Shown piece by piece: positions 3,695 to 53,499 of a stretch of 64,000 bases of DNA. The stretch's first letter is position 1. Each line of letters begins with the position of its first letter. Made by a program: the position numbers and the translations under genes. The notes under the pieces were generated by a model, which was not told where the DNA came from, ran no database searches, and was given only the letters and a program-made list of their open reading frames with translations. This stretch comes from Candidatus Hodarchaeota archaeon (GTDB lineage Archaea > Asgardarchaeota > Heimdallarchaeia > Hodarchaeales > Hodarchaeaceae): the NCBI GenBank assembly GCA_016840285.1, contig JAEOSR010000062.1, forward strand, positions 62,001-126,000, written 5' to 3'.

Positions 3695-4171
3695 ATGACT
3701 ACATCCAATAAGAAAGAAGGGAAAATAACTAAAAAGAAGAGTACTAAAAAAGGATCAATTATTGTAACCAAGGAAGAATTCTTACGATTGCGACCAATTA
3801 TCAGCCCATATGTCTCTCAAAAGAAAAAAACCAATGAGGACTTACTATTAGAACTTGATCTTCGTGAATTAAAAAAACGAAGCATCCTTAAAAGACTTTT
3901 TCCAACCCCCGATACAAAAAAAGTACAACTCGACAAATTAGGTATGGAAGTTTTTCTTCTATGTGATGGTAAACATAAAGTGAAAGATCTTATTGAGAAA
4001 TTTCAAGAAAAATATCGCTTAACGCCAACAGAGACCGAATTATCAATAAAGAAGTATTTGATGAGTCTTACTGAACGTCACCTTGTTGGATTTATGATCC
4101 CAGAAAATATCGCGAAAGGAAGACTACCATCAGGAGAAGTAATCGAAAAAATAGTTTTTGATTCGGAATAA
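3695..4171 (+). CDS. PqqD-like (RiPP recognition element-type) domain protein
   Basis: 158 residues. The first 30 are very rich in lysine. Residues from about 74 to 140 match the PqqD fold: a VQLDKLGMEVFLLCDG segment, then helices in a KVKDLIEKFQEKY pattern, then a terminal region with LTERHLVGF. PqqD domains bind precursor peptides for radical-SAM or other modifying enzymes, but no radical-SAM gene or precursor peptide is visible here. Free-standing PqqD-like proteins of unknown role are common in archaea. ATG 3695 has GGAAGA eight bases upstream. It converges on the unknown gene at 4218. Peptide modification is therefore a possibility, not a call. Confidence 0.7.
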   Translation: MTTSNKKEGKITKKKSTKKGSIIVTKEEFLRLRPIISPYVSQKKKTNEDLLLELDLRELKKRSILKRLFPTPDTKKVQLDKLGMEVFLLCDGKHKVKDLIEKFQEKYRLTPTETELSIKKYLMSLTERHLVGFMIPENIAKGRLPSGEVIEKIVFDSE

Positions 4172-4217: not shown

Positions 4218-5147
4218 TTAATTGGCTTCTATCGCTAGTTTAGTCATGTTTTCTATTAAATCTCGAGTTTTTACACTAATTTGTTTCTTCACAGAAAAAA
4301 TAAGGCAATAGATATCATTTTTGTCTGGATTCAACCATAGATAGGTTTCTAAGAACTTACTTCCAAGTAATTTTTTTTCGATAATCTGTTCAGCCTTCCA
4401 AGCAACTATTTTCTTCTTATAAACCAGTTTTGTGAATTTTTCTGGGTTATAATTAGAGGGAATTCTTGGGAGGTGCTTTTTATAGTATTCTTTATACCAT
4501 TCAGGGATTTCACTTACATCCGTTACTTTTTGATCAGCTAGACCAATACGGTAAGCTAGAAAATCGAAATCATCATTATTAAGATGGAGAAATGTTAATC
4601 CAATCAAAAATTCTCTTTTTTTTAGGTTCATGCTGAGATAAGGAGAATATATCCGTAGATTGGGTGCTGACCATACGGAAAACTTGCTTTCTGGATGACA
4701 ATTGATTTGAGAGATTATCTCCATTATTAACGGTTTTTCCTTAGATATTTCTTTTGTGGTAAATTGAGATGTACAAATAATTAACCGTTTTGTTTGACTA
4801 CAATTCCAAATGACAACATAACCTTGAATCTTTTCTTTGTCCAATTCCCAATAGATATACCTTGCATTATGCTTATTAACTTCTCTTTCACCTTCAGTTT
4901 TTATCTTAATCTTCTTATGTGATTTTTTTAAAGATTTAAAGTACTCTTTGATAGCTTTATTAATATCTGGTGCTTTTTTATCAAATTTAATCCAACTGAC
5001 TTCCAATTTTTTTTCCTTTGCATCACGAAAACCAAAATATCCTGATTCTTTCTTTTGGCTCCGATCTCGTTTTTTCTCAAATATCATGTGCCAATCAATT
5101 GGGACTTTGATTAAGATGTATTGCCAACCTAATGTTTGAGTTTCCAT
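4218..5147 (-). CDS. Unknown cytosolic two-domain protein
   Basis: 309 residues with no signal peptide or membrane helix. I do not recognise the family. The protein seems to contain two similar-sized alpha/beta halves, each with a conserved aromatic-rich start and several beta strands. The opening (GWQYILIKVPIDWHM) resembles the beginning of Mog1/PsbP/DcrB-like folds, in which an aromatic-rich strand precedes a P-x-x-W segment, but this is weak. It is lysine-rich and converges on the PqqD-like gene with a 46-base gap. Such a pairing could mean shared function, but they are on opposite strands. Confidence 0.6.
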   Translation of the reverse strand: METQTLGWQYILIKVPIDWHMIFEKKRDRSQKKESGYFGFRDAKEKKLEVSWIKFDKKAPDINKAIKEYFKSLKKSHKKIKIKTEGEREVNKHNARYIYWELDKEKIQGYVVIWNCSQTKRLIICTSQFTTKEISKEKPLIMEIISQINCHPESKFSVWSAPNLRIYSPYLSMNLKKREFLIGLTFLHLNNDDFDFLAYRIGLADQKVTDVSEIPEWYKEYYKKHLPRIPSNYNPEKFTKLVYKKKIVAWKAEQIIEKKLLGSKFLETYLWLNPDKNDIYCLIFSVKKQISVKTRDLIENMTKLAIEAN

Positions 5148-5551: not shown

Positions 5552-7801
5552 GTGAATAAGAAATTAAATTCTTTATTATTCGTTTTATTACTTGTATCCC
5601 TTTTATCTTTTGCTAATACGAGGGCAAATCGAACAATTTATTCTGCATTAAATGAGAGTCAGATTTCAAAAAAAGTCACGGCAAATAATGAGTTAATCAA
5701 GGTAGATATCGTTGTCACGGCCCCAACAGGACCTGATCTCGAAGAATTTACTCCTATAATAGTTCCACTATCGGAAATTGCCGATCAGCTCCCAGACTCG
5801 GTTGATCCCTTTGGAATGAATGTATCTACAGAAGATGATGACGTTAAGTGGGATGCAGCATATGTGACATACGAGGGGAATTTAATTCCTTCACAGGTGG
5901 ATGATGTTGATGATATTCGAGGTTATTCTGGGGAAGACGAATTAGTATTTGCACTCCCTGAATCTGTAAATCTAGCCAGTGGGGAAACAGCTTCTTTTTC
6001 TGTCTATTTCAGTCTAAAGGATATGGATCTACCACCCCCCTATTTTCCAGAGGTATGTACTATCTCTATTTATCCTGATCTTCGCGAAGTAAATTCTGAA
6101 TGGCCCGATATGCTAGGTAAAGGAGATGGTGTTTATGATTTAGAGAATGAACAACTCCGTGTATCAGTTCTCAAAGCAGCAGCTTGGTCTACAGGGGGAG
6201 TGTATCACATACAACTTTTGGATGAGCAAGGAGAATCACGGTGGGACGTAATCAAACAGAGCTTCCCCTATCCGTCCGAAATCTGGAAATGGTCTCGCTT
6301 CTCACTGATTGACCAATTTGCAGCGCAAAATCAATTTGCGGATCGGCCATATCCTGGAAAAATTGTCAAGATGATTCCAGGGCCTGTACGAGCCCGATTT
6401 ATCATGCAAAGTACCCAACCTTATGTCACAGGAGCATTTGGGGGTGGTACAACGACAATCAATGATCTTTTTGGTTTATTTACTTACGATGTTTACGCTA
6501 ATCAGACCTATTTTGATTACACCCTTGAATTAACTGGGCCAAAAGCTGACGATTACCCCGAAATAGCTCTCGAATTACAAAACAGAGAATGGGGTGGCGG
6601 TAGACCTGGAACACTGTATAAAGGCATTTATATACCAGGAACTGGATGGGTAGAACGTTCCCCCGATGATGCTGCGAAACACAAGGTCGAGAAAAGTGAT
6701 TTTGCAGACTCTTGGTATTTAGAGGCGTTATTGGAAGGAACTACAGTCCGTCCAGCCAAATTGCAAGAACCAGATGAAGATCCTTATCGGGGATATGGAT
6801 TTATCTTTGATGATACAGGATTTTCCAATATAACATGGGATACGGCGAGTGAGTCGCTTTCTAGCTGGTATAATGCAGCACAATTTCCTCTTCAGGCACG
6901 CTATCACCCCTTTGATAAAATTGTATTGAACGGTCAAGATAAAATTCAATTCATGGAGGACAACCATGAGGAATGGACTCGAGAGAATCCTTCGTTGACA
7001 TTTAACAGCTCGATGGTCAATGTGACTCAAATACCGTTTGAGTTCCTCTTTGTAAGTCCAGCTGGCGTTGATTTTGATCTAGACAATGAGTTAATTGATA
7101 TTGAAAATATTACAGCTTATCCAACAGATATCAATCAATTTATCACTCAAGATAGTCCAGAGCTTGAAAGTGCGACATATAAAATCCTCAACCAAAGAGA
7201 TGAATCTGAAACAGGACTGGAAGGAGATTTAACGTGGAATGATTCTTCTGAAACATGGTACGCTCATGACATCGATGTTTCTTCCCTGGATCTATTTAAA
7301 CTGTTTGTTGTGGTAGCCTATTTCGAGACTTCTACACTTGATGGTAGAAGCACGGCATCTGAACGTTTTGGAGGTGGTCCAGATACGAGTCCACCATTTA
7401 TCGGTGCTGTGAACCGAGATCCACTGGATGTTGTCAGATCTAACAACAATGTGACAATAACTGCAGATGTAATCGATTATGAAGGTAGTATTTCTTTAGT
7501 GATTCTTAGCTTTTCTAATGGAAGTTGGTACAATCTCACAATGAGTCTCGCATATGGATTATACCGTGCTGTCATTCCCCCTCAGGATGGAGGAAAAACA
7601 ATTGAATACAAAATCATTGCGTACGATGATTCTGCAAATGTGAATACTTCAGAGATATACAGTTACTACATAACAAAGCCATATGCTATTGGGCAGGGGA
7701 TTTTACCATTGATTATTGTTGGTGGAGTTCTGGTCGTAGCGGTAGTTCTTGCATTAAGATCGAGGGCTTTGCATAGACAAAAATATGATCAAGTCGAGTA
7801 A
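5552..7801 (+). CDS. Large membrane-anchored surface protein, carbohydrate-enzyme-like
   Basis: 749 residues with an N-terminal signal peptide (LLFVLLLVSLLSFA) and a C-terminal membrane helix (about 720-742) followed by a short basic tail. Residues 45-155 are a beta domain with a pattern of 'values, D.G..IPSQVDD, LVF.LP, L..GE..SF.VYF'. This resembles N-terminal domains of DUF4861 and related polysaccharide-lyase-associated proteins. The middle part (190-470) has many aromatics and a GPVRARF segment shared in style with the next gene. Residues about 610-705 look like a fibronectin/Ig-type domain. No catalytic residues can be named. Translation starts at GTG 5552 with GGAG about ten bases upstream. 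Its role is probably binding or cleavage of extracellular glycans. Confidence 0.75.
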   Translation: MNKKLNSLLFVLLLVSLLSFANTRANRTIYSALNESQISKKVTANNELIKVDIVVTAPTGPDLEEFTPIIVPLSEIADQLPDSVDPFGMNVSTEDDDVKWDAAYVTYEGNLIPSQVDDVDDIRGYSGEDELVFALPESVNLASGETASFSVYFSLKDMDLPPPYFPEVCTISIYPDLREVNSEWPDMLGKGDGVYDLENEQLRVSVLKAAAWSTGGVYHIQLLDEQGESRWDVIKQSFPYPSEIWKWSRFSLIDQFAAQNQFADRPYPGKIVKMIPGPVRARFIMQSTQPYVTGAFGGGTTTINDLFGLFTYDVYANQTYFDYTLELTGPKADDYPEIALELQNREWGGGRPGTLYKGIYIPGTGWVERSPDDAAKHKVEKSDFADSWYLEALLEGTTVRPAKLQEPDEDPYRGYGFIFDDTGFSNITWDTASESLSSWYNAAQFPLQARYHPFDKIVLNGQDKIQFMEDNHEEWTRENPSLTFNSSMVNVTQIPFEFLFVSPAGVDFDLDNELIDIENITAYPTDINQFITQDSPELESATYKILNQRDESETGLEGDLTWNDSSETWYAHDIDVSSLDLFKLFVVVAYFETSTLDGRSTASERFGGGPDTSPPFIGAVNRDPLDVVRSNNNVTITADVIDYEGSISLVILSFSNGSWYNLTMSLAYGLYRAVIPPQDGGKTIEYKIIAYDDSANVNTSEIYSYYITKPYAIGQGILPLIIVGGVLVVAVVLALRSRALHRQKYDQVE

Positions 7802-8061: not shown

Positions 8062-9432
8062 ATGAAAAAGAAAAGTATTCAGGCCTTAACAGTAGGTCTA
8101 TTTGTTTTTTTATTTTTGATGTATGCAACCCAAGTAGGAATCGTTCCAGTAGCAGCCAAAAAAGCTGGCACTATCACCGTTACTGCTGGTGACGACGATT
8201 TGGTTGAAGGAACACCTATTATCCTCAATGCTTCCATGATTCCTGATGGGATTGCCAAAGCCACTGCAATCATTATGGATGAAGACACAGAGCTTCCAAC
8301 TCAGTTTGATGAAGACCTCGACGAATTGGTCTTCCAATTACCAGCTGACCTCGAAGCTGATGCTTCTGTTACATTTGATATTGTAGGAGAGGCGTCTGGT
8401 AGTAATAATGGTCAATCTGCATCAATCACGATTGGTCAAGGCGACTATGCCACTACTTATGATGATTGGCTCCCCACATGGGCAACCAAAGGATTTATGA
8501 ACGGTACAACGCAAGCAAATATGGTCAAGGTTATTGGTGATGTTATTTGGGTTGAAACAGACTGGGCTGTTCTCTGTCTTGCAGTTGAAGCTGATTGGAG
8601 ACAAGGAACATGGCGCCACGTTGCTATGAAAGATCCTAAATGGGATGCGGTTGGAACACACAATTGGAATGCTTCAAGCGATTGGCAATTTCAATGGGCT
8701 GCCTCACTCTTCCAAGATGCTGATGAAGGGTGGCCACGTGGTGGTGGATTACCTGATACAGTCGAAATTAAAGAAGTTGGTCCTGTACGAGCGGTGATCA
8801 AGACTATTGCCAACGCTCCTTTCAAAGACAATTTAGGCCAATTAGTACAAAATTGTAATGCAACAAGAACCTATACCATGTATGATGGATTTGTCGGAAT
8901 CGCTCAACATTTCACTCTCTCTGGTGAAAACGCAACTCAAGCAATGACTGATTTTACAGAGCTAAATGATCTGGAAGAACCATTACGAATGAAACATCAA
9001 ATGATGGACGGCACACTACTCAAAAAAGTACATGTTCCAGGAATTACTACTGACTTCGCTCGAGGTGGTGGAGCAGTCGATATGTCTGATGCCACTGATC
9101 CCTATTTCGCAATTTACAATGATACTACAAAATTCGGTTACGTCTATAACTACGCAGATAAGAAAAACCTCGAAGCATTCGATCCTGGCAATGAAATCGT
9201 GATGAACTACAAATATACTAAATTCCCAGAGGAAGGACTCTGCCGATTCTACATACCTTTCGACACCTACACAGGAACATTTGCCGATCACGCTGCATCA
9301 CTTAACACTATGTGGACCGCTGAATACACCTACGAAATTGAAGCAGCAGCAGCAGCCCCAGGTTTTACACTCCTCTTTAGCACTATTATCCTAATAGGAG
9401 TAGCATTGGTCATTAGAAAGAGAAGACGTTAG
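8062..9432 (+). CDS. Secreted protein with PGF-type C-terminal sorting signal
   Basis: 456 residues. It has an N-terminal signal peptide (about 1-33, ending AAKKA) and a C-terminal tripartite signal: an alanine stretch, PGF at about 430, a hydrophobic helix and RKRRR at the very end. Such PGF-CTERM-like signals are processed by archaeosortases in other archaea. The ectodomain is beta-rich and aromatic-rich. It contains a GPVRAV segment and repeated W-containing strands, and resembles the middle of the preceding 749-residue protein, suggesting a distant common origin. I see no enzyme motif, and carbohydrate binding is an inference from locus context. The gene has its own leader of about 260 bases and ends with a T8 terminator. 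Confidence 0.78.
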   Translation: MKKKSIQALTVGLFVFLFLMYATQVGIVPVAAKKAGTITVTAGDDDLVEGTPIILNASMIPDGIAKATAIIMDEDTELPTQFDEDLDELVFQLPADLEADASVTFDIVGEASGSNNGQSASITIGQGDYATTYDDWLPTWATKGFMNGTTQANMVKVIGDVIWVETDWAVLCLAVEADWRQGTWRHVAMKDPKWDAVGTHNWNASSDWQFQWAASLFQDADEGWPRGGGLPDTVEIKEVGPVRAVIKTIANAPFKDNLGQLVQNCNATRTYTMYDGFVGIAQHFTLSGENATQAMTDFTELNDLEEPLRMKHQMMDGTLLKKVHVPGITTDFARGGGAVDMSDATDPYFAIYNDTTKFGYVYNYADKKNLEAFDPGNEIVMNYKYTKFPEEGLCRFYIPFDTYTGTFADHAASLNTMWTAEYTYEIEAAAAAPGFTLLFSTIILIGVALVIRKRRR

Positions 9433-10200: not shown

Positions 10201-10803
10201 ATGAGTTTAGATTTACCTGAACCAGAATTTTCAATAGTTGAAGTGTTTTTTCTCTCTTTTTCAAATATCAGAAGACGCTTTTTCCGTTCGATGATTACAG
10301 CTTTGGGTATCATCTTAGGGATCTCATTTATGACGGCGTTGGTTACAAATTCGCTGATCTTGGGGTGGCTTCAAGCAGAAGCGAGTGTTGAAGCATACCA
10401 ATTTTGGTTAGTAGGTATATCTTTAGTAGTTTGTTTTGGGGGGATAACTAATAGCATGTTAATGGCAGTAAATGAGAGAGTAAAGGAGATTGGTGTATAC
10501 AAATGTATTGGAGGATTGGATAGCCATATTGTGAGATTATTTATTGTTGAGGCCTTACTCCTTGGAGTCATGGGGGGGACTATTGGTGGAATTATTGGGA
10601 TTGGAATAGGCATAATTATTAATTTGAACCGTGCCTCTCTTGATGAAATTACTGGGGTTTTAACAGTAAACTTTTCTACAATCGTAATTTTACTTGGAAT
10701 ATGCTTATTAATTTCTATCCTATTAACAGTTCTCGCTACTTTCATTCCTGCCAGAAGAGCCGCTGGATTGTCTCCAGCAGAGGCATTACGATACGAGAAT
10801 TAG
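10201..10803 (+). CDS. Minimal FtsX/MacB-type ABC permease without ectodomain
   Basis: 200 residues against about 400 for a normal MacB/LolC-type permease. It keeps the first membrane helix (RSMITALGIILGISF, about 31-50) and the three C-terminal helices. It also keeps the FtsX signature after helix 2 (MLMAVNERVKEIGVYKCIGG) and the terminal RRAAGLSPAEALR coupling segment. The large periplasm-facing domain that normally sits between helix 1 and helix 2 is almost entirely missing, reduced to about 15 residues. The frame is intact, so this looks like a real compact form rather than a broken gene. It is followed 15 bases later by the first of two ATPases. It could pair with another FtsX protein, such as the fusion at 17477. 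Confidence 0.85.
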   Translation: MSLDLPEPEFSIVEVFFLSFSNIRRRFFRSMITALGIILGISFMTALVTNSLILGWLQAEASVEAYQFWLVGISLVVCFGGITNSMLMAVNERVKEIGVYKCIGGLDSHIVRLFIVEALLLGVMGGTIGGIIGIGIGIIINLNRASLDEITGVLTVNFSTIVILLGICLLISILLTVLATFIPARRAAGLSPAEALRYEN

Positions 10804-10818: not shown

Positions 10819-11544
10819 ATGAGTCTTGAAGAATATGTTGTTGAGATCGCTGATGTTCACAAGGAATATCATATGGGAAAAATCGTAATACCTGCTCTTC
10901 AAGGGATTTCATTTAAGATCAAACGAGAAGAGTATATCAGCATCATGGGACCATCTGGATCAGGTAAGAGCACAATTTTTAATGCTATTGGTGGATTGGA
11001 CACAGTAGACAGAGGAGAAATCTATATAGATCAGGTAGATATAGCTGAATTAGATGCTTATGAACTTGCGTGGCTCAGAAATCGGAAAATTGGTTACATC
11101 TTCCAAACTTTCAATTTGTTACTCGCTTTTACAGCGCAAGAAAATGTAGAAACTCCAATGGTATTTGCTGGCGTATCGAGAGAGGATAGAAGGAAAAGAG
11201 CGAAAGAAATTCTGAAATTGGTGGGTTTAGAGGATCGAGCAGGAAATAAACCTGGTCAGTTATCAGGGGGACAACAACAGCGTGTTGCCATTGCTCGGGC
11301 TCTAGCGAACAACCCTGCTATCATTCTAGCAGATGAACCAACAGCAAATCTTGATTTAGCAACTGGTTTAGATATCATTAATTTATTGCGAAAATTGAAC
11401 GAAGAGCAAGGAACCACTATAATAACAGCTACCCATGATTTAAAGATGATTAGTATTAGTGATCGTATTATATGGGTTCGTGATGGAAAGGTGGAACGAA
11501 TAGAAGACCGTGCTGATATTAAAGTCGCAGTGGAATCTTATTAA
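10819..11544 (+). CDS. ABC transporter ATPase, LolD/MacB type (first copy)
   Basis: 241 residues. All ATPase motifs are present: Walker A GPSGSGKST near residue 44, Q-loop FQTFNLL, signature LSGGQQQ, Walker B ILADEPTA and the switch histidine in ATHD. The sequence and the size fit the lipoprotein/macrolide-export class that powers FtsX-type permeases. It lies between the minimal permease and a second ATPase that is clearly a paralogue, in one operon. The two could form a heterodimer. Confidence 0.94.
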   Translation: MSLEEYVVEIADVHKEYHMGKIVIPALQGISFKIKREEYISIMGPSGSGKSTIFNAIGGLDTVDRGEIYIDQVDIAELDAYELAWLRNRKIGYIFQTFNLLLAFTAQENVETPMVFAGVSREDRRKRAKEILKLVGLEDRAGNKPGQLSGGQQQRVAIARALANNPAIILADEPTANLDLATGLDIINLLRKLNEEQGTTIITATHDLKMISISDRIIWVRDGKVERIEDRADIKVAVESY

Positions 11545-11554
11545 GGTGATATTA

Positions 11555-12295
11555 GTGACGGAAACAGATCTTACGATCAAAATGGACGACGTCAAGAAGA
11601 CTTATCAAATGGGAACCGAGGATGTTCATGCCTTGGATGGTGTTTCTCTCTCTATTCCTCGTGGGGAGTTTCATGTAATACTAGGGCCTTCAGGCTCGGG
11701 GAAAACCACTTTTCTGAATATGGTTGGCGCTTTAGACGTCCCTACATCAGGTGAAGTGTATTTAGAAGGGGTTCCTTTATCAAGTTTAAACCCAAAACAA
11801 CTGGCTTCTATCCGTGCGTATAAAATCGGATTTATTTTCCAAACCTTCAATCTTGTTCCTGTAATTAGTGCACTGGACAACGTGGCATTACCTCTCATTT
11901 TTCAAAGGTTTCCCAGAGAGGAAAGGCGAAGGAGAGCAATTGAAATACTTAAAAGGGTTGGATTAGGAGATCGGTTGAACCACACTCCAGATGAGTTGTC
12001 TGGTGGACAACAACAACGTGTAGCAATTGCTCGAGCACTTGCAGGTAAGCCAAGTCTTATCTTGGCAGACGAAGCAACTGGAAATCTTGACTTGAAAACA
12101 GGTTTTGCTATTGTTGAATTACTGAGAGAGATGTCTCAAGAAACGGGGGTGACAGTTATCTCCTCTACGCACGATTTGAAGTTAATTGATATAGCAGATC
12201 GAATTTCTTGGCTACGAGACGGTAAGATCACTCGAACTCAGAAAAGAATAGATGTCTCAATTTCAGAAGAGGATGTTTCCTTACCTCAAAGTTAA
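11555..12295 (+). CDS. ABC transporter ATPase, LolD/MacB type (second copy)
   Basis: About 246 residues from the preferred GTG start at 11555: AAGGTGAT sits at 11543-11550, four bases upstream, and the start is ten bases after the previous stop. An upstream in-frame start at 11510 would overlap the first ATPase and lacks a ribosome site. Motifs: Walker A GPSGSGKTT, Q-loop FQTFNLV, signature LSGGQQQ, Walker B ILADEATG (Ala in place of the usual Pro after DE) and STHD. All catalytic residues are kept, so both ATPases should be active. It is paralogous to the first copy. Confidence 0.93.
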   Translation: MTETDLTIKMDDVKKTYQMGTEDVHALDGVSLSIPRGEFHVILGPSGSGKTTFLNMVGALDVPTSGEVYLEGVPLSSLNPKQLASIRAYKIGFIFQTFNLVPVISALDNVALPLIFQRFPREERRRRAIEILKRVGLGDRLNHTPDELSGGQQQRVAIARALAGKPSLILADEATGNLDLKTGFAIVELLREMSQETGVTVISSTHDLKLIDIADRISWLRDGKITRTQKRIDVSISEEDVSLPQS

Positions 12296-12320: not shown

Positions 12321-12551
12321 TTGAAAGAAAACAATATAGAAATAGAAAGAAATGGTGAAAAAAGTTTGGCAGAAGTAAGTGATATTATTGCAGGCACTTG
12401 TGTTGTACTAGCTTTGCTACTAGCGATCTTTTCAACTACTGTGATGGAAATAATAGGAGATTTTCTTCTGCTGCTTATTGAAATAGGCCTACTGATAGTG
12501 ATCATAGGTACAGCATTATATGGCCAACGTATTTCTAGAAGTAGCGGATAG
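12321..12551 (+). CDS. Small two-helix membrane protein
   Basis: 76 residues from a TTG start at 12321, with no ATG or GTG in frame. Two hydrophobic helices (about 22-42 and 47-67) are separated by a very short loop, with a charged N-terminus and an RSSG tail. No family recognised. It begins 25 bases after the second ATPase on the same strand, so it may belong to the ABC operon as an accessory subunit. Function is unknown. Confidence 0.5.
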   Translation: MKENNIEIERNGEKSLAEVSDIIAGTCVVLALLLAIFSTTVMEIIGDFLLLLIEIGLLIVIIGTALYGQRISRSSG

Positions 12552-15230: not shown

Positions 15231-17435
15231 ATGAGTGATGATGCCGAAAAAAAGTTAGAATCAATCGAAACTGAAGACTTTGATCCAGATCAACCGCAAA
15301 CTGGGTTAACAAAAAGGTCACTAATTGTTGCTTTAATTATACTGCTTCTATGGGGATTAATGAGTATTTTTGCAGGTAATTTTGGCAGTGCTACCCATAT
15401 ATTCATAGAGGAAATGAGTATTCTCTTCCCATTCTTTCTATTGATCTTTGGACTTCAGGCTTTAGAGAAAGTGAGAATTAAAGGACTGAGATTAACTAGA
15501 CAAGAATTAACTTTTATATGGGGTATGCTTGTTGTTGGTATTCCTATTACTAACAGTGGTTTCCTTGCTGGGAGGTTATTGCTAAATGCAATGTTTGCAT
15601 ATAGCCCAGGAAGTGGATCATATGTGCCGTCCTCATTTGTTAATCACTTGATTTTTTGGGGGCCTACATCCCCAGCAGAGCATGATGCTGCTTTTGAAGG
15701 AGGAGTAATACCGAATATGGGGGAATGGATTCTTCCAATTGTTTTTTGGGCCATTACTTCTATTGCTTGGGCTTTTATGTGTTTATTCTTAATTCAAATC
15801 TTTAGAAAACCGTGGGTAGATGTAGAACGACTTGCTTTCCCATTAGCTCAACCAGTTCAAGAACTATTGGAAGCACCATTAGCTATTCCTAGTGAGAAAA
15901 GAAAAAGATATACGTGGATGGCTCTCGGCGCATTACTTGGATTTATATGGTCATCATTTGAATTTCTCAGAGTGGTGTTTCCAGAATGGGGGGATTTTTT
16001 CGCCAATATCGACATTTTCGGGATTCAGCCTGGTAGAGCTTGGGCGGTACGTATTGACTTAGGCCAGGAACTCGGATTAAGTTCAATTTTACCTAACGCT
16101 TTTCTTGAGGCACGACCTGAACCAGTAATGATCGCGGTGTTTCTTCTTGTATCATTAAATGTCCTTCTCTCTGCATTAGTATTCTATCTACTTTTCTGGG
16201 TCATCGTACCCATCTTTGAAACTGAGGTAGGATTAATTTCTCCTCCCACTGGAGTAGCATCACCTCCCGATATAGATCTTGGGTTTGCGAAAGTAGGTGG
16301 AATGTCTCTTTTTACGTTTGGAGAGTTCGGTATTTTGTTCGGGTGTGCTATTTGGGCTATCCTTCTGCAAAGGAGATATCTTTGGAGAACAATTCAGGCA
16401 ATCCGGGATCCTAGTATTATTGATGAAAGTGGTGAACCCATTCCCTATCGTGTTGCTTGGATTGGGTTCTTAGGCTGTGCTCTTGTCTTCTTAGGAAGTT
16501 TACTACTTAGCAATCAATTTAATCTGATCGGAGGTATTTATGTAGTCATCTTTCTTTGTGTAGCTTATGTTGCAGGCGCAAGACTTAGAGCAGAAACAGC
16601 TGGTATGGGAATAGGCCATCCAGGATACGTACATTTGCATGGGATGCATACTGCTAGAGTACTTATGGGTATAAACGGTGAAAATAAGCCTGTAGATCAG
16701 CCAGGTTTTTATGTGACTGCTCTATGGATTCAATTTTTTCAGCGCGATGCCGCACCAGCCGCTCCTGCAGTTTCAGCTTTAGAATCGTATAATGTCGCAA
16801 GAATAACTAAAACTCGAACACGAGACATTTTTATCAGTCATGCAATTGGTGTTGTGATGATAATCGTGTTGTGTTTAACAGCTTGGCCATTCTTTACCTA
16901 CTTTTACGGATTAAGTAATGAATGGGCGGGCGAAGCAGGACATAACTTTGATTATACAGAATCGTCCTATCAGTTAGTGACTGGTGGTTACTGGGACTTT
17001 TTAAGTTATGGAGTGGACATCTGGGGTCAAGCAATCTTGGGAATAGTGTTTGCGATCGGATTAAATATCATTCGTCTTAGTAATCCTTGGTTACCATTGA
17101 ATCCAATTGCTGCTCCCATTCTTTTGAGTCTTCGTGGCGGCTATTGGTGGTTACCTATACTTATCGCCTATTTAATCAAATACGCAGTAGTTAGAATCGG
17201 TGGAACTAAAGCTTATACAGGCTACCTCCTACCTGCAGCTGTGGGATACCTTCTTGGGACAGCTGGTGTTTGGGGGTATTCCTTACTTTCGATTATGATT
17301 CCTGCATTGTTTCCCTTTTTACTCTTTGATCCAATCATTGAATTTATTTACTACTATGCTATTGTTTTACTGATCTGGTTCGTTGCATTAGTTGGGCTTG
17401 TAATTTATATCATAAAAGGAATGATCAAATCATAG
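15231..17435 (+). CDS. OPT-like multi-pass transporter (DUF6784/6785-like)
   Basis: 734 residues with about 14-16 hydrophobic helices after a 30-residue acidic N-terminus. The pattern and length resemble the OPT/YSL-like membrane proteins annotated as DUF6784/DUF6785 in archaea and Planctomycetes. Conserved-looking soluble segments include FRKPWVDVERLAFPLAQPVQ near 185 and a GIGHPGYVHLHGMHTAR block near 465. ATG 15231 follows GAGGTCAC at six bases. It starts a three-gene operon with the peptidase/FtsX fusion (gap 41 bases) and a second, shorter member of the same class (gap 34). OPT family members move peptides or metal chelates, but the carbohydrate-rich surroundings make oligosaccharides a possible substrate here. 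Confidence 0.8.
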   Translation: MSDDAEKKLESIETEDFDPDQPQTGLTKRSLIVALIILLLWGLMSIFAGNFGSATHIFIEEMSILFPFFLLIFGLQALEKVRIKGLRLTRQELTFIWGMLVVGIPITNSGFLAGRLLLNAMFAYSPGSGSYVPSSFVNHLIFWGPTSPAEHDAAFEGGVIPNMGEWILPIVFWAITSIAWAFMCLFLIQIFRKPWVDVERLAFPLAQPVQELLEAPLAIPSEKRKRYTWMALGALLGFIWSSFEFLRVVFPEWGDFFANIDIFGIQPGRAWAVRIDLGQELGLSSILPNAFLEARPEPVMIAVFLLVSLNVLLSALVFYLLFWVIVPIFETEVGLISPPTGVASPPDIDLGFAKVGGMSLFTFGEFGILFGCAIWAILLQRRYLWRTIQAIRDPSIIDESGEPIPYRVAWIGFLGCALVFLGSLLLSNQFNLIGGIYVVIFLCVAYVAGARLRAETAGMGIGHPGYVHLHGMHTARVLMGINGENKPVDQPGFYVTALWIQFFQRDAAPAAPAVSALESYNVARITKTRTRDIFISHAIGVVMIIVLCLTAWPFFTYFYGLSNEWAGEAGHNFDYTESSYQLVTGGYWDFLSYGVDIWGQAILGIVFAIGLNIIRLSNPWLPLNPIAAPILLSLRGGYWWLPILIAYLIKYAVVRIGGTKAYTGYLLPAAVGYLLGTAGVWGYSLLSIMIPALFPFLLFDPIIEFIYYYAIVLLIWFVALVGLVIYIIKGMIKS

Positions 17436-17476: not shown

Positions 17477-20400
17477 ATGAGGTATCGCTTTTTCGTCTTT
17501 TTCTTTCTCCTTTTTTTTGCTACTAATCATTTCCTGGATGTCTCAAATGTTGAAAGCTCAGAGATCACGAATCCCAACGCAAATGTAATTCTGGATGTTC
17601 GTCCAGATTTTAGTGACCTAGGTCAAATGATCAATATGGAAAATATTCAGAATCATATTGCAAATTTTTCGAGTTTTCAAAGCCGTGTTACTGGTTATCC
17701 TGGTTATGAGCTCGCTGTTGATTATATAGAGAGCTTTTATACAAACCAAGGATTAACCAACGTTTCAACCATGACTTATCCTAATTTAGTAGCTATAGAT
17801 CAAGGTACAACTGTAGAAGTAAATGATCAAAACTTTACAGCTCATACCTTAATGCCCAATTCGTTCAATACTGGAAAAGCAAATGGGATATCTGGAACAT
17901 TAGTATATGGAGGCACAGGGTCATATCTAGATCTAGACGGTAAAAAAATAGAAGATTCAATTGTGGTTCTTGAATTCAACTCACAGGATAACTGGATTAA
18001 CGTGGCGAGTTTAGGTGCAAAAGGGGTCATTTTTTTAACTACTAATGACACAAACAGGTTCGAAGCAGAAGAAAAAATCCTTGACATACCACTCAATTTT
18101 CCACGGGTGTATATTCATAATCAGACCGCATCAAACGTGATTAAAACACTAGCTGAACAAAATTCTCAAACTAGTCGCATTTTTTCTCGGATGGAATGGA
18201 TTACTGTCGATGCTAAGAATGTCATGGGATTAATACCTGGGAATGATGATGATATCCTCATAATCTCTGCTCACTTCGATTCTCTCTCTGTAATCCCTTC
18301 GATTGCTCCTGGAGCTGATGAAGCATGCGGCATAGCTACCTTATTGGAGCTCATTCGAGTAATTAAAGACAATAACATTACCCCCGAAAAGACAATCATG
18401 TTTCTTGCACTTTCGGGCCATAACCAGGAAGCTGCAGGCGCTCGGAACTTTGTCGACCAGTATTATAGCTTATTAAATGTAGATTCTGGATTTAAACTTT
18501 TTATCTCATTAGACCTTTCTGCTACAAACACAAAGGTTGGAATAAATCCTTATGGCTACCTATACGAATTCCAGTTGCAATTTACCACAGGAAATAATCT
18601 CATGAAAAGAATGTCTGAGATTGGGGAGGACTATCTAGAAGCTTACGCTGAAGATATTCTTACTGAGACTGGAACCTCATTTAGTGTCGAATCGTACATT
18701 ACTAATAGTCAATTTAAACATATTACTCCTAATACCTTTGTTGGTGACCAAGAGCCTTTCGTTGCAGCTAATGTTATTGGTCTTTCCCTATTTACGGCAG
18801 AAACTCATCGTGCACGTTTTAATACACCAGCCGATTTACCCAATAGTCTACAATATAATCATTTAGAAGAACAGGTTGTCTATGTAATTTGTGCATTAAC
18901 TGCGTTGATAACCGAGACTAGTTTGGATAATCATCTTGACCTTGAAAACAAGCTTTTTGCTTTGAAAACTGCAACAAGTGCACATGTAGGTTATGGATAT
19001 ATCGAAGGTTATGTTAAAGAGTACAATGAAACAGAAGGTTGGTATAACAATATTCCAAATGTTTTCATTAGAGCTCGTCCTTGGCATCCTAGAGAGGGTT
19101 CGTGGACCGAATATAATTATATTACCAAAGCAGATGAAAATGGTTATTATGAAATTGTGGGAGTATCATCTGCACAACCTGATTATCCTTATGAGTTTCT
19201 CGTAGAAGCTTTTTCCTTTGATTCAGAGGGAAACTTAATAAAGGCAAGTAATTTGGGGCCCCGAGGGCAAAGTTTCAAACGTTATAATGCTCTCACAAAT
19301 CGTAGAACAACTGTTAACCCAACAGTTTTTGATTGTGGGACAATTGGTTTTTTTAGTGTCTCTCACCCCCATACTCAAGTGGAAGCTGCTGAACTACTTT
19401 CTTACCAAATTCTTGATCCCGACACTCGAAATGAATATTTTTCCTATGGATACTTTGGAAGAAAATCAGTCAGTCTTGTTTTTATTCAGCCAAACCTTCC
19501 ATCTATCGTTGTTGGGAATTATCCTGATAAAATACTAGGAATTTATGCCACAAATTCAAACAGGTCAGCACCTCGAGGTAATGGATTCACTTTAAGTCGA
19601 GGAGAGTATCTCAATCTTGGTATTTCCGCGTATATTACCACGAGAGATCTACTTTCAATTACAAAAACCTATGTAAATTTGTATTCATCATACAATATTC
19701 AAGATTCATTAGTAGAGGAAACATATCAAAATGCCTCCACTCTATTAACCAGCGCTAATGCTTTGCGAGATAATTATGAATATTCTGCATTAATTGTTGT
19801 TGTATCAGAAGCGCAGGCATGGGCTTACGATAGTTTCAGACAGGCAAGACAAGTCATCCAAGATGGGACAACGACTACAATTTTTTTTGCCATCCTTCTT
19901 CTTCCTTTTGCGTTTGCGATGTCAGCACTTTTATTTGATTTCGACAGTGGATTGAAAAGAATCTCTGCAACAAGTGGAATTTATGCTATAACCTTTGGAA
20001 TTTTTTATTTTATTCATCCTGGACTTCATCTTTCGAGTAACATTGCTATGATTATTGTAGGAGTTATAGCTGCAATTTTTGTGTTTCCTACGTTATATAT
20101 GATCTATTCGGAAGGATATGACTTCTTGAAATCCTTACGAATTAAAGCATTAGGAGGACATTTTGCAGATTCATCACGAACCTCAACGATACTGATTGCT
20201 ATGTCAACAGGTATTGCCAGAATGAAAAAAAGAAAAGGTCGTACTATCATAGCATTGTCAGGAATTGTTCTAATTACATTTTCATTAACTTTGTTCACCT
20301 CAGCATCCACCCAGGTTTCAACATTCATTAGAGGTCAAAGTCAAATAATAAGCTATGAGGGAATCTATCTTCGATCTAAAGATTGGGAATTTCCTCTTCC

Positions 20401-21886
20401 TGAAGGAATAATTGATAATCTTGAGTCAACGTACGGAGATCAAATACTCATAGCCTCACGCTGGTGGTTGTACCCTCCATCCGATATCCAATCATTACCC
20501 AATGGTTATGTAAATGTGGAAACACAAAATGAAACTGCTAGTTGGCAAGGATCTGCTATTTTAGGGATTACACCTAATGAACCACAATTTCAGCCTGTTA
20601 CAGCCGCGTTAATATCTGGTAAATGGTTTACTCAATCAAATAGTAGTGAGTGCATTTTTACAGACTTCATTAGTAATCAATTAGGAGTTGGAGTCAATGA
20701 TACTGTCATCTGGGCTGGTCAAGAACTATTTGTTGTTGGTATAATCTCATCAAGTCAATTGGATCAGATGATAGATATGTCAGGGGAAAAAATCACTCCG
20801 AAAAATAATCACGCTCCAGCACCTAATGTTCACATACGAGCAACTGAAACATTCATCATACCAGCTCAAACAGCAAAAACATTCGGAGCAACTCTCTCTT
20901 CTCTTTCTATCCAAACATCTAACGAATCAGTGGCAATCGAAATTGCTCAAAAGATTTCCTCTACATATGGTCGAGGATTGCAGGTACGAGTAGGTTATGA
21001 TGATGAAGTTGCAATCTATTCTCACACAGTAGAGAGTCTTGGTAAAGGTTTAGGAGATCTTATCATTCCTCTGTTGATTGCCATCCTCTTAATGGTGAAT
21101 ACATCAGTTTCCACTGTTTATGAATCAAGAAAGGAAATTAATACGTTTACCTCTTTAGGACTTGCTCCATTCCATATTGCTGGCCTCTTTTTAGCAGAAT
21201 TTCTCGTCTACGCGGTTATTGGCTCAGTTATTGGATATTTATTAGGTATTACTTCTGCAGTTATACTTTCGGCCCTAGGAGTTTTTCCAGCATCCCTAGC
21301 CATCAACTATTCCTCTGGATCAGTATTTTCAGCCCTTGGTTTAGGAATCATCGGGATTTTGCTAAGCACGGTTTATCCACTACGAATTTCAGCAAAAATG
21401 TCTGTTCCTTCAGTACGACGCTCATGGGAGTTGAAAACTGCCTACGAAGAGGATGGGAAAACATGGCACATTCCATTACCATTTGTAGCTGCAACTGAAC
21501 AAGAAGCAGCAGGTATTATTGAATTTCTTTGGGAATACTTCTTCATTTACGAATCGGAAAGTGTAGGTGGAGTATTCTTCGCTCAGAATATTCAGAAAAA
21601 AGATACAACTGTTGATCGAAAAGAGAAGCACTTAACCGCAGTAGTAAATCTGGCTCCCTTTGATGCTGGATTAAAACAGAAAGTAGACCTTTACACATAC
21701 CTCGATGAAATGAATTTGCGATGGGTCTTCGTGATTCATCTTGAGCGGTTAGAAGGAATATTGATGGCTTGGGAATCTTCAGTTAGACGTTATGTGGACG
21801 CTATTCGTAAACAACTATTAATCTGGAGAAGCTTACCTAAAGAAGAAAAGGCGGCAAAAGCTGAAAAATATAAAACAGATATCTAA
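17477..21886 (+). CDS. M28 peptidase-like / FtsX permease fusion, M28 site degenerate
   Basis: 1469 residues with a signal peptide. Order: M28 domain with an inserted PA-like region (about 50-480), a carboxypeptidase-regulatory-like beta domain (about 510-600), a helical region, three membrane helices (about 795-890), then an FtsX module: helix, about 240-residue ectodomain and three helices, ending with a 150-residue soluble domain. In the M28 part H266, D268, D281 and D346 are kept. The usual Glu-Glu pair is replaced by H315-N316, and the last zinc His by N449 in RFNTPAD. H443 lies nearby. The domain is therefore probably inactive or altered. It has no ATPase of its own. It sits between two OPT-like transporters and may couple to the two ATPases at 10819-12295. 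Confidence 0.85.
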   Translation: MRYRFFVFFFLLFFATNHFLDVSNVESSEITNPNANVILDVRPDFSDLGQMINMENIQNHIANFSSFQSRVTGYPGYELAVDYIESFYTNQGLTNVSTMTYPNLVAIDQGTTVEVNDQNFTAHTLMPNSFNTGKANGISGTLVYGGTGSYLDLDGKKIEDSIVVLEFNSQDNWINVASLGAKGVIFLTTNDTNRFEAEEKILDIPLNFPRVYIHNQTASNVIKTLAEQNSQTSRIFSRMEWITVDAKNVMGLIPGNDDDILIISAHFDSLSVIPSIAPGADEACGIATLLELIRVIKDNNITPEKTIMFLALSGHNQEAAGARNFVDQYYSLLNVDSGFKLFISLDLSATNTKVGINPYGYLYEFQLQFTTGNNLMKRMSEIGEDYLEAYAEDILTETGTSFSVESYITNSQFKHITPNTFVGDQEPFVAANVIGLSLFTAETHRARFNTPADLPNSLQYNHLEEQVVYVICALTALITETSLDNHLDLENKLFALKTATSAHVGYGYIEGYVKEYNETEGWYNNIPNVFIRARPWHPREGSWTEYNYITKADENGYYEIVGVSSAQPDYPYEFLVEAFSFDSEGNLIKASNLGPRGQSFKRYNALTNRRTTVNPTVFDCGTIGFFSVSHPHTQVEAAELLSYQILDPDTRNEYFSYGYFGRKSVSLVFIQPNLPSIVVGNYPDKILGIYATNSNRSAPRGNGFTLSRGEYLNLGISAYITTRDLLSITKTYVNLYSSYNIQDSLVEETYQNASTLLTSANALRDNYEYSALIVVVSEAQAWAYDSFRQARQVIQDGTTTTIFFAILLLPFAFAMSALLFDFDSGLKRISATSGIYAITFGIFYFIHPGLHLSSNIAMIIVGVIAAIFVFPTLYMIYSEGYDFLKSLRIKALGGHFADSSRTSTILIAMSTGIARMKKRKGRTIIALSGIVLITFSLTLFTSASTQVSTFIRGQSQIISYEGIYLRSKDWEFPLPEGIIDNLESTYGDQILIASRWWLYPPSDIQSLPNGYVNVETQNETASWQGSAILGITPNEPQFQPVTAALISGKWFTQSNSSECIFTDFISNQLGVGVNDTVIWAGQELFVVGIISSSQLDQMIDMSGEKITPKNNHAPAPNVHIRATETFIIPAQTAKTFGATLSSLSIQTSNESVAIEIAQKISSTYGRGLQVRVGYDDEVAIYSHTVESLGKGLGDLIIPLLIAILLMVNTSVSTVYESRKEINTFTSLGLAPFHIAGLFLAEFLVYAVIGSVIGYLLGITSAVILSALGVFPASLAINYSSGSVFSALGLGIIGILLSTVYPLRISAKMSVPSVRRSWELKTAYEEDGKTWHIPLPFVAATEQEAAGIIEFLWEYFFIYESESVGGVFFAQNIQKKDTTVDRKEKHLTAVVNLAPFDAGLKQKVDLYTYLDEMNLRWVFVIHLERLEGILMAWESSVRRYVDAIRKQLLIWRSLPKEEKAAKAEKYKTDI

Positions 21887-21920: not shown

Positions 21921-23813
21921 TTGGCTGCAACCAATGAAGCTACAGATGAAGGAAAGGAAACCAGAGAGATTTTTCAAAGCGGACTGACTTGGCGGGTCGG
22001 ATTGGCGATCATTTATTCAGCAGCCATCATCCAACCAGCTGCAATTTATCTTTACTTCGTCACCAATCAGTGGTTTATTGGAGCTGTACTTAATACAACG
22101 ATTGTTCTCTTTGCAGTATTTGCTAAGATGTCAGATAATCCTTTAACAAAACAAGAAGTCTTTATGTTAATCAATGTGACGAGTACGGCCCTTGGTATGG
22201 AAATGATAGTTGTCTTGGTTTTTAATTACTATTTAAAGCACCATCCGATAATAAGTTCGCAAATTATTGATGGAACATCTCTAACTGTTCTCATCCCAGA
22301 CTGGTTTGCACCTGACTATTTTGGACCAGTTCGCACTATTTTGAATCCAGTGTTCATTCTACCTCTCACATTACTGATTTTAAGTGCCCTCTTGGCAAAA
22401 GCTTCTGATTTATCTCTTGGAATCGTATTTAATTATCTATATACCAAGGTTGAAGTATTACCCTTTCCCACAGCCGAGGTAGAAGCTGAAAGATCAAGAT
22501 CTCTGACTTGGGAAGATAAACGGAAGTTACAGATATTTTCTGTTTCTGCAATCGTAGCTAGTCTTGCAGGAATAGTTTTATATTTCTTTCCACTAGTTGG
22601 AGGCATAACACTAATCCCTATACCTTGGTTCGATTTTACATCGTCCGTAGAGGGTTTTTTAAATGGAGCAACTTTCGGTATAGCTACAGATATTATCTTC
22701 TTCGCGACCGGATTCATCCTTCCTATGAAAGTGGTTGTTTCAATCCTAATTGGTTCAGTATTTGTTAATTTGATTATGAATCCTATCCTAGTGGCGAGTG
22801 GCCAGGATATCGGATGGGAAAAAGGGATGTCATTGGTTGATACTTTTAATAATTCACAACTTAAGTTCTGGCTCCCTTGGACAATTGGGTTTCTATTATC
22901 ATCCGCCCTGATACCCATTTTAAGGAACCCTAAGATTTTTGTAACAACAATCAAAGATTTAAGAAAGCTAAGTAAGGGAAAAGGAGAGGAATTAGAAGGA
23001 GGAACACCTAAATTAAGTATCTTAATTAGTATTTTTCTACTTGGGACGTTAGGTTCGGTTGTTATAGCGATTATGCTTATTCCGAATCTTTCATTTCAAA
23101 TGATAGCTGTACTCGTGATATTAACTGTTGGATGGAGTTTTATATCTTCCCTCACCATGGCTTATGCCTTTGGCATAACTGCAAATCTTCCAATTATCCC
23201 TTATGTTAAAGAATCGGCCTTTGTTGCAGCAAATGCGCCTGTTGGTGGAGAAATATGGTTTCTACCACTCACAATTAGCCAAGGAGGAGCTTCATGGGTA
23301 GCAACCTTCAAAACTGCTGATCTAACTTACACAAAAAGAGGAAGCTTAATCAAAGCGCATATTTTAGCAAGCTTTGTTGCTTGGGCCGCAGGAATTTTTT
23401 GGGTATCAGCGCTCTTATCGATTGCTCAAGTTCCATCAGTGATTTTTCCTGTACCATTTTGGCCATTAGAAGTTGGTAAAATAGCCACTTTCGTTACTAA
23501 TCCAACTGTGGTTATTAATCCTGTAATTCTAGCAATAACATTTGTTATTACATTGATCCTTTACTTAATTGAATGGGGAACACCTGTTCCTATTTCAGTT
23601 ATTTCATTCGCAGTTGGAACAATTACTGTTATTCCTTATGCGTTCACAACATTCCTGGGAGCATTATTTGCTAAACTTCTTAAGGCTAGAATGGAGAATT
23701 GGGAAACTGATAGAGCTGTAATTCTTGCAGGAGTCGGAGCTGGAGTGGGAATCATTATTGCTTTAGCAACATTCCTTGCGCTCATCAACAACACAATTGC
23801 TTTACCATTATAG
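21921..23813 (+). CDS. OPT-like multi-pass transporter, second member
   Basis: 630 residues with about 14 membrane helices; the N-terminal 20 residues are charged and soluble. It shares the overall plan of the 734-residue protein at 15231, including a cytosolic VLPFPTAEVEAERSRS segment near 185 that parallels the W-V-D-VERLAFPLAQP segment there. The TTG start at 21921 has GAGGG about seven bases upstream. It closes the operon begun at 15231. The two could be subunits of one transporter or handle different substrates. The class is normally annotated as peptide transporter by distant similarity, and no experimental substrate is known to me. Confidence 0.78.
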   Translation: MAATNEATDEGKETREIFQSGLTWRVGLAIIYSAAIIQPAAIYLYFVTNQWFIGAVLNTTIVLFAVFAKMSDNPLTKQEVFMLINVTSTALGMEMIVVLVFNYYLKHHPIISSQIIDGTSLTVLIPDWFAPDYFGPVRTILNPVFILPLTLLILSALLAKASDLSLGIVFNYLYTKVEVLPFPTAEVEAERSRSLTWEDKRKLQIFSVSAIVASLAGIVLYFFPLVGGITLIPIPWFDFTSSVEGFLNGATFGIATDIIFFATGFILPMKVVVSILIGSVFVNLIMNPILVASGQDIGWEKGMSLVDTFNNSQLKFWLPWTIGFLLSSALIPILRNPKIFVTTIKDLRKLSKGKGEELEGGTPKLSILISIFLLGTLGSVVIAIMLIPNLSFQMIAVLVILTVGWSFISSLTMAYAFGITANLPIIPYVKESAFVAANAPVGGEIWFLPLTISQGGASWVATFKTADLTYTKRGSLIKAHILASFVAWAAGIFWVSALLSIAQVPSVIFPVPFWPLEVGKIATFVTNPTVVINPVILAITFVITLILYLIEWGTPVPISVISFAVGTITVIPYAFTTFLGALFAKLLKARMENWETDRAVILAGVGAGVGIIIALATFLALINNTIALPL

Positions 23814-27589: not shown

Positions 27590-27729
27590 TTTACATCCTT
27601 CTTTTGAAGTTCTTAGTTTCTTTACCATTAGTTTTTCTCTTTTTTAAGAATTGTTTCATATTAAATAATAATAGAGATTTTTTCGGAAGGTTAGAGTAGG
27701 ATGGTCCCAGAGAATGATCAAATATATTC

Positions 27730-29103: not shown

Positions 29104-29324
29104 TTCAAGGAATCTAGTGGGTGAATTTCCTATAAGTTAATTTAAAAAACGTAAAAATCTTTACCATTTAAAACATATTTAGATATTTATCAGAACCAAC
29201 GTTATGCTGTCCTTATGTCATACTAGGATGATTGTTTTTCTAAAAGGAATAATTTGTAAAGTGTTTTAGAGGAAAACAATTTATTCAAGAATCTTTATAG
29301 AATCTGAATTTTACTCCGAAAGGG

Positions 29325-31193: not shown

Positions 31194-31247
31194 GCTCCTA
31201 CATGATTTGAAATTATTGAAAAACAAACTAGATAAAAATAACTAGAT

Positions 31248-32621: not shown

Positions 32622-32655
32622 CGTTTTTTCCTCTGCAATAATTAATGTACTTTAA

Positions 32656-33852: not shown

Positions 33853-33868
33853 CGTTAAAATTTCCTAT

Positions 33869-35767: not shown

Positions 35768-35884
35768 AGGAATAATAACATCCTACTTGGCGTCAATAAG
35801 AATTAAATAACACGTGAGTTGATATTATTTGTCTTTAATTGTTTATTAATAATTTGCATATCTAGATTAATAGGAAAAAAAAAG

Positions 35885-52165: not shown

Positions 52166-52296
52166 TTCTAAATCACTCCTTTTTTCCTTTCATAATTATC
52201 TCTTATTGGGGATTAGTCTTAAAAGACTGTTACACAAAAGAATGTATTTAAAATCCAAGAACTTCCTAAATAAATAATCGATTGGAGTTAATTACA

Positions 52297-53499
52297 TTGT
52301 CAATGATCAAAAAAGCAATCGAAGCTGTTGATATCAATAATTTATATGAGCACATACTCTCACTTGAAGGAGTTAAACACGCTCTTGATTCGTATGATAT
52401 GTTAATTCAAGCAGGAGAATATATCGAAAAATCACTCCAACAATACGATATTACTACAAACAGACACTTTTTCACCGTAGAGGGGATAGAGAAAGATTTT
52501 TTCAATGTAGAAGGTTTTTTAAAAGCCCCTATGGATCTATCCAAACCTACATTCTTAATAACCAACCATTATGATACTGTTTATTCTACTCCTGGTGCCG
52601 ATGACAACGCAAGTGGAGTAGCAGTCATGTTAGAAGTTGCTCGTGTTCTTAGCAAATTAAATTTTAAAAAAAATATTATTTTTGTCAGTTTTAATCTAGA
52701 AGAATTTTCTCCTAGTTTACAGAACCCGATAAGAAAGATTGGTAGCAAGTATGGAGTCTTTGATAGGAAATATCGTTATATTTCCTGGCCATTAAAGAAA
52801 TATACAGACCAATTTAAAAAACAGATAATTGCATCGGGACCAACAAAACCTTTCCTTGATGAGGATGAATGGAACAAATTTGAGGCAAAAGGGAAATTAG
52901 AATTGAAAAACAAGGAACTTAAATTCTTCAAGGAACAGAATAGGATATTTCGTGAATCAGCTCGAGATGATCCCTTTGGTAGAAGTTTTTGTTTGGGTAG
53001 TGATGCGTACTCAAAATATGTCGTTGAAAAAAAGATGAATCTTGCTGGGATTATTAATCTCGAATCGATAGGTTTTGCAACCAACGAACCTTATTCTCAA
53101 CGATTGCCTCGTGGTATTAGTTTAGATATGTTCAAAACTCATAGTACCGATCATAAACAATTGATAGGTAATTATATTACTATCATTGGTGATGAAAACT
53201 CTCAGGTTCTTACAAATACTTTCTTTAATTCATCTCAACATGATTTGATCAAACTGCCTTGTGCTTGCTTAGACGTTCCTTTAAATTATGAAGGAATTAA
53301 GCAAACCATGCCTGATCTATTAAGAAGTGATCATGCTCCCTTCTGGAGACTTGGAATTCCTGCAATTATGGTAACTGATACCGCTAGTTTCCGTAATCCT
53401 TTTTATCATACTGGGGGTGACACAATAAACACATTGGATTTTCCATTCATGAAAAAGATTTGTCAAACTACTCTTTCAACAATAATTAGCATGTTTTAA
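52297..53499 (+). CDS. M28-family zinc aminopeptidase, intact active site
   Basis: About 400 residues from TTG 52297 (GGAG nine bases upstream); ATG 52303 is also possible. The full M28 ligand set is seen: HYD in TNHYDTVYS, GADDNASG, the Glu-Glu pair in FNLEEFSP, an E in NLESIGF and the final His in FYHTGGD. There is no signal peptide, so it works inside the cell. It contains a lysine-rich insertion of about 100 residues between the second and third ligand regions. Its complete site contrasts with the degenerate M28 domain of the fusion at 17477. Confidence 0.9.
   Translation: MSMIKKAIEAVDINNLYEHILSLEGVKHALDSYDMLIQAGEYIEKSLQQYDITTNRHFFTVEGIEKDFFNVEGFLKAPMDLSKPTFLITNHYDTVYSTPGADDNASGVAVMLEVARVLSKLNFKKNIIFVSFNLEEFSPSLQNPIRKIGSKYGVFDRKYRYISWPLKKYTDQFKKQIIASGPTKPFLDEDEWNKFEAKGKLELKNKELKFFKEQNRIFRESARDDPFGRSFCLGSDAYSKYVVEKKMNLAGIINLESIGFATNEPYSQRLPRGISLDMFKTHSTDHKQLIGNYITIIGDENSQVLTNTFFNSSQHDLIKLPCACLDVPLNYEGIKQTMPDLLRSDHAPFWRLGIPAIMVTDTASFRNPFYHTGGDTINTLDFPFMKKICQTTLSTIISMF

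Follow-up and report, generated by a model that had tools for sequence, protein, structure and literature searches.

A giant protein of 1469 amino acids, encoded on the forward strand at 17477..21886 of the 64,000-nucleotide window analysed here (Candidatus Hodarchaeota archaeon, contig JAEOSR010000062.1, positions 62,001 to 126,000 of the forward strand), combines a region with the fold of M28 peptidases and an FtsX permease domain, as identified by Pfam and a homologue search. As far as aligned sequences can tell, the loss of the M28 metal site in this protein is family-wide and not an accident of one gene, and the best reading is that the M28-fold domain is a pseudopeptidase with a re-used pocket. 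The giant gene belongs to a multi-gene module with OPT-fold, ATP-binding cassette (ABC) and PqqD-like genes that forms an apparently undescribed system. What a sequence-only reading of this DNA had suspected to be the dead enzyme of a single gene from an Asgard-type archaeon becomes in this way a probable family-wide pseudoenzyme with a defined pocket; the conservation of the substitution and the membership of the module go beyond that reading, and the module is the larger finding.

The M28 fold is present in the giant protein, with a Pfam match to residues 248-464 inside a fold region of approximately residues 40-480 (17594..18916, forward strand) that is probably extracytoplasmic; fold comparison places the transferrin receptor, which shares the fold but is no peptidase, among the best matches of this region. 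It is followed by a MacB_PCD-like periplasmic core domain (residues 923-1149, 20243..20923, forward strand), which scores 25.5 bits and lies below the Pfam cut-off of 27, and by the FtsX C-terminal permease domain (residues 1197-1309, 21065..21403, forward strand), which scores 40.8 bits and exceeds its cut-off of 25.5. In an alignment to solved aminopeptidases, H315-N316 (18419..18424, forward strand) take the positions of the catalytic Glu and the zinc-ligand Glu of the Aeromonas/Vibrio aminopeptidase (AAP), and D268 (18278..18280, forward strand) that of AAP D99; D346 and N449 (18821..18823, forward strand), the latter in place of the last zinc His, were assigned both by motif and by profile alignment. 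The AAP residues concerned are E151, E152, H97, D99, D117, D179 and H256. The alignment of the 1469-residue open reading frame (ORF) bears out the earlier claim that H315-N316 replace the Glu-Glu pair and that N449 replaces the last His, and all residue positions given with it hold except H443, which is properly H444.

The extent of the loss was determined in a set of 191 distinct relatives (non-identical over the aligned part), consisting of 119 proteins from a protein search (best 120 of 180 homologues) and 72 from public loci, with 19 duplicates dropped; the threshold of E 1e-40 leaves out remote members, and the scan of public contigs with the pattern [AS]PGAD[EQD][ATS]CG favours members that retain D281. 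None of the 191 relatives has a Glu at position 315 or 316. Position 315 is a His in 177 relatives (13 have a different residue there and one is gapped), position 268 is an Asp in every readable relative (190, with a gap in the remaining one), and the last-His position 449 is a His in a single relative. Position 266 is divided between His (58), Tyr (94) and Phe (32). Of the five canonical metal ligands, three at most are present in any one relative, which upholds, at the level of sequence, the earlier view that no canonical di-zinc M28 site is present. Among 436 positions ranked for conservation, with similar sequences down-weighted to an effective number of 54, D268 ranks 2 and H315 ranks 21, compared with 131 for position 316 and 265 for position 449. 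E426, R445 and D453 are retained in 169, 173 and 175 of the 191 relatives, respectively, and position 271 is a Ser with a weighted frequency of 0.96 (98 full-length members). When a divergent member from a bacterium was used as the query of another search, 21 proteins were returned, one of them already in the set; none of the 21 has a Glu at 315 or 316, and 16, read by eye, have a His at 315. This search was also used to look for a fusion protein with an intact Glu-Glu site, and none was found among its 21 proteins. A sequencing or assembly error was rejected as an explanation, as relatives from many genomes likewise lack the Glu pair.

Two parts of the earlier argument require correction. A rescue of the zinc site by H315 and a second His is unsupported as a family function, and H444 was rejected as a replacement ligand: position 444 is a His in just 26 of the 191 relatives and position 266 in 58. 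The statement that M28 enzymes need the Glu pair and the last His is too strong for the first Glu, because the PDB entry 2anp is titled "Functional Glutamate 151 to Histidine mutant" of AAP, the same substitution as seen here; the losses of the second Glu and the last His weigh more. The interpretation as a whole was right in direction, in that no di-zinc site can be recognised and the absence of such a site across the whole family argues for binding or scaffolding over decay, but it was narrow and leaned partly on the first Glu.

Stand-alone M28 genes served as controls. The gene at 52282..53499 (forward strand), outside the module, keeps the Glu-Glu motif and is the intact control that it had been taken for. 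Together with M28-only hits from seven of ten genomes (a part of the M28 genes there), aligned with the same profile as the fusion family, it makes up a set of 14 ORFs, of which 11 retain Glu-Glu (eight aligned at both columns, three more with the pair in an unaligned part); the remaining three read E-D, S-K or are gapped. Because the site is lost throughout the fusion family, the new His is conserved and stand-alone M28 proteins mostly keep Glu-Glu, a pseudopeptidase with a re-used pocket is the favoured interpretation. In a maximum-likelihood tree, 29 fusion domains are split from the 14 stand-alone sequences by a branch with 100/100 support, though branches are long for several of the stand-alone rows. 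This is most simply explained by a single loss of the site that preceded the spread of the family, with the His mostly retained from then on; the single branch and the conserved His argue against recent decay. The control that reads S-K is a stand-alone M28-like ORF of a Heimdallarchaeota metagenome-assembled genome (MAG; L125, G001:C31:20000-22700), where the M28 site may have been lost a second time.

The giant gene is flanked by genes for two related membrane proteins. OPTa (15231..17435, forward strand) matches DUF6785 and DUF6784 in Pfam (E 1.4e-33 and 6.4e-10), and OPTb (21921..23813, forward strand) has no Pfam hit. The predicted model of OPTb (mean pLDDT 79) has barley Yellow Stripe 1 (two entries), a member of the OPT/YSL transporters, as its sole fold match in the PDB at E <= 0.001, with a predicted fold shared over 529 residues at 14% identity. 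The link surfaced only through fold comparison: the Pfam OPT model gave no match to OPTb listed at E 1 (HMMER filters drop weak hits), and sequence searches of the PDB with DUF6785 (phmmer and profile) and the 21921 family (profile) gave no match at E 5 or 10. Computation on the predicted model thus shows an OPT fold for the 21921 family, and OPTa is homologous to this family (hhalign 99.2%), through which DUF6785 likely has the same fold. The profiles of both families were built from neighbours in loci L001-L036 chosen by similarity, with some bacterial OPTa rows chosen by position, and among the bacterial rows L024 alone was checked against Pfam. In counts of OPT genes within 6 kb, the OPTa of L031 and the OPTb of L118 overlap the giant gene and are uncounted, which leaves the totals for any OPT gene unaffected. 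A large independent family of OPT-fold transporters is suggested by Armatimonadetes bacterium CG06 (G006, the genome behind L018), which has 29 DUF6785 matches.

Upstream of OPTa, all on the forward strand, lie a minimal FtsX half-permease of 200 residues, too small for a periplasmic domain (10201..10803), an ABC ATPase of the LolD/MacB type (10819..11544), a second ABC ATPase found in all nine long-form Hodarchaeal loci (11510..12295) and a small hydrophobic protein of 76 residues present in the window and the nine loci (12321..12551). Homologues of the minimal FtsX occur near the giant gene at other loci, the LolD model is the best match to the nearby ATPase (E 1.1e-66, below the equivalog cut-off), and an ATPase is encoded within 12 kb of the giant gene in 25 of 39 well-flanked loci. 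A PqqD-like (RRE-fold) protein of 158 residues (3695..4171, forward strand) was assigned by Pfam and genomic linkage; the Pfam PqqD E-values are 2.6e-6 in the window, 4.8e-11 in L024 and 8.8e-12 in L107, with scores that all pass the Pfam cut-off and are below the NCBIfam equivalog cut-offs. Its linkage was assessed in 11 genomes, with rounded genome lengths; in G003, G008, G348, G384 and G498 a PqqD-like gene had been recognised in the locus beforehand. A protein of about 300 residues (4218..5147, reverse strand), with no Pfam match at E 0.05, recurs in the vicinity of the module in Hodarchaeota, Desulfobacterota and genomes of the Armatimonadetes phylum. Two surface proteins with N- and C-terminal hydrophobic segments (5552..7801 and 8062..9432, forward strand) have relatives in eight and seven of the nine long-form Hodarchaeal loci, respectively.

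The loss of the metal site, the conservation of the new His, the OPT fold of the 21921 family (on a predicted model) and the gene linkage are computed results, and the following mechanism is proposed around them. The giant protein would be one half of an ABC machine of the FtsX/LolCE/MacB type (type VII), with the minimal FtsX at 10201 as its putative partner half and presumably driven by the two LolD-like ATPases (10819 and 11510). The extracytoplasmic M28 fold, in which a conserved His replaces the catalytic Glu and the usual di-zinc site probably cannot assemble, would bind a peptide or peptide-like ligand in its pocket uncut, and ATP-driven movement of FtsX might load the ligand onto, or release it from, the OPT-fold transporters. 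In the cytosol, the PqqD-like protein might handle this ligand as well, or else a partner's peptide segment. The guess of a peptide ligand is made because the known relatives of three parts (M28 fold, OPT and PqqD) handle peptides. An ATP-driven receptor arm that binds such a ligand without cleavage and works with OPT-fold transporters, with ligand, direction and coupling as conjectured here, has about an even chance of being correct. Tentatively, the whole may be an undescribed archaeal-bacterial transport or signalling system in which a LolD/FtsX-type engine drives or gates OPT-fold carriers through a giant arm whose aminopeptidase domain was converted once, at an early stage, to a receptor that does not cut its ligand, with a PqqD-like cytosolic ligand chaperone.

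Several observations weigh against this proposal. The extracytoplasmic placement of the M28-fold region derives from hydropathy and family knowledge only. H315 is not universal, with an Arg in one Thermoprotei member and a Gly or a Ser in members of the Thermodesulforhabdus group. The window protein retains H266, D281 and D346, so that one metal ion is possible. Five of the 39 well-flanked loci are without an OPT-fold gene; of the contigs with DUF6785, one carries the giant gene in G006 and none in G007. The minimal FtsX was not found beside any of 11 Thermoproteota/Thaumarchaeota loci. Six short Hodarchaeal paralogues of about 1250 residues (L007-L010, L012 and L013) have no module gene in their available flanks, which are long on both sides in only one case; the L013 paralogue is cut by the contig end. 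Clustering of small ORFs revealed no conserved precursor of a ribosomally synthesized and post-translationally modified peptide (RiPP), although diverse precursors could be missed; the Hodarchaeal hydrophobic protein was the only cluster in more than four loci, and a RiPP precursor near the module was rejected. Finally, the surroundings of the module in the window are sugar genes (26693-41376), and the ligand may therefore be a glycan.

Among the alternatives, a purely structural role of the M28 fold is unlikely but has some weight. The fold would be a platform, as in the transferrin receptor and nicastrin, that docks a partner such as the OPT-fold proteins or the surface proteins at 5552 and 8062, with a ligand-free pocket; the fold match to the transferrin receptor and the strong gene linkage to membrane partners speak for it, whereas a pure platform fails to explain a pocket residue that is more conserved than 415 of 436 positions. 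That the module imports glycans or glycoconjugates, bound by the pseudo-M28 domain, is distinctly unlikely. GH4 (twice), GH130, an amylase and a MalEFGK-like importer at 26693-41376, a glycosyl-hydrolase-like gene that follows the module in L016 and the 29 DUF6785 matches in one Armatimonadetes genome are in its favour. The neighbours differ elsewhere, however (M16 peptidases in L107, with relatives in L105, glycosyltransferases in L031 and a TonB-dependent receptor in L106, ten such neighbours having been scanned), and PqqD-like proteins bind peptides where studied, according to PMC7470986.

Two further explanations keep a catalytic site. The domain might still be a metal hydrolase, a slow or specialised peptidase or cyclase that holds one metal through H266, D281 and D346 with H315 as the base. 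In its favour, the second metal position is complete, with its three residues, in 40 of the 191 relatives (the window protein and 39 others), and the AAP mutant titled functional in 2anp provides a precedent. This mutant has its other ligands, though, while the giant-protein family lost two. Already at 55-68% identity most relatives have a Tyr at position 266 (18 of the 24 proteins at the top of the list, the window protein counted among the 24); across the 191 relatives this position holds a Tyr or a Phe in 126, and position 281 varies to E, T and S. A metal hydrolase is quite improbable. A metal-free site built on D268 and H315, possibly with S271, and active for example in acyl or amide transfer on the transported molecule, would account for the ranks of D268 and H315 (2 and 21 of 436) and for the conservation of E426, R445, D453 and S271. 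It is highly improbable, given that 13 of 191 members have a different residue at position 315 and that the Asp at the position of D268 is a second-shell residue in active M28 enzymes too. A pseudopeptidase that binds its ligand uncut remains the preferred reading.

The module resembles several known systems in parts. M28 aminopeptidases (AAP, 1amp; 2ek8; BSAP; PaAP) have the same fold and motif order, and the HxD, PGAD and LD motifs are recognisable, but the giant family lost the second Glu and the last His (kept in one of 191), mostly has a His for the base Glu and is fused to FtsX. The transferrin receptor likewise carries an M28 fold without a peptidase site on a membrane protein, and nicastrin and nicalin are non-catalytic M28-fold membrane proteins; these are eukaryotic receptors or complex subunits, in contrast to the putative ABC permease half with a conserved pocket His found here. 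The type VII ABC systems LolCDE, MacB, FtsEX and BceAB share the FtsX domain, a nearby LolD-like ATPase and perhaps, given the score below the Pfam cut-off, the MacB_PCD-like domain; particular to the module are its very unequal putative halves of 1469 and 200 residues, the pseudo-M28 ectodomain and the OPT-fold partner genes. OPT/Yellow Stripe transporters are alike in the predicted fold of the 21921 family, at 14% identity, but here two related types stand beside an ABC engine. We know of no FtsX-type ABC engine that is coupled to an OPT-fold carrier. If OPT-fold carriers are indeed powered or gated by the ABC engine, a mechanical link would exist between two classes of transporters that are treated separately.

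A discrete PqqD-like protein near an ABC system is also a feature of RiPP clusters; the RRE-Finder paper (PMC7470986) regards such a protein near regulators, enzymes and transporters as a sign of a RiPP cluster. Unlike RiPP clusters, the module has no conserved precursor and, in the Pfam-scanned part of its neighbours, no radical SAM domain; the missing precursor peptide is the reason why the module is not filed as a RiPP cluster. The terms FtsX and M28 are absent from the main text of a later RRE paper (PMC12710340). In the open-access literature, no description of a pseudopeptidase-ABC-OPT module, no paper on DUF6785 or DUF6784, none that connects PqqD with FtsX and peptide ABC transporters and, partly on the basis of the titles and abstract beginnings of 15 out of 90 papers, no description of an M28 peptidase-FtsX fusion was found; on M28 pseudopeptidases, a single paper on a fungal degradome came up. 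The present analysis assigns a likely OPT transporter fold to an unnamed family and, by homology, to DUF6785.

The distribution of the giant protein was determined with the family profile (E 1e-100) in genomes drawn evenly from larger groups, each phylum being labelled after the named MAG at the centre of the search; three candidates were scored per genome, so that copy numbers are lower bounds. The protein was found in 121 of 151 sampled genomes in the phylum of an Armatimonadetes MAG, in 23 of 151 in that of a Thaumarchaeota MAG, in 9 of 148 in that of a Desulfobacterales MAG and in 5 of 148 in that of a Heimdallarchaeota MAG, and a Planctomycetota MAG (L019) also carries the gene. A carrier named to the species level is Thermodesulforhabdus norvegica (P0121), a cultured bacterium, which makes the ligand and the direction of transport open to test.

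A pair of M16 peptidase genes adjoins or lies near the giant gene in two genomes from the phylum of the Armatimonadetes MAG (L107:2628-5275 and L105:11908-14589); it was rejected as part of the module, being present only in L105 and L107, plus a 612-residue ORF in L110. In the window, two reverse-strand genes (12579-15011 and 24512-26401) are related to each other, have no Pfam match and are conserved in Hodarchaeal loci, with cross-matches of approximately 1e-26 to 1e-34 in relatives; they lie near the GH4, GH130, amylase and MalEFGK-like importer genes. Proteins P0025-P0042, similar in length to the short Hodarchaeal paralogues, show no MacB core domain in precomputed Pfam annotations, and P0138 and P0139 (2450 and 2480 residues) are longer relatives with an added LysM domain (PF01476) in such annotations.

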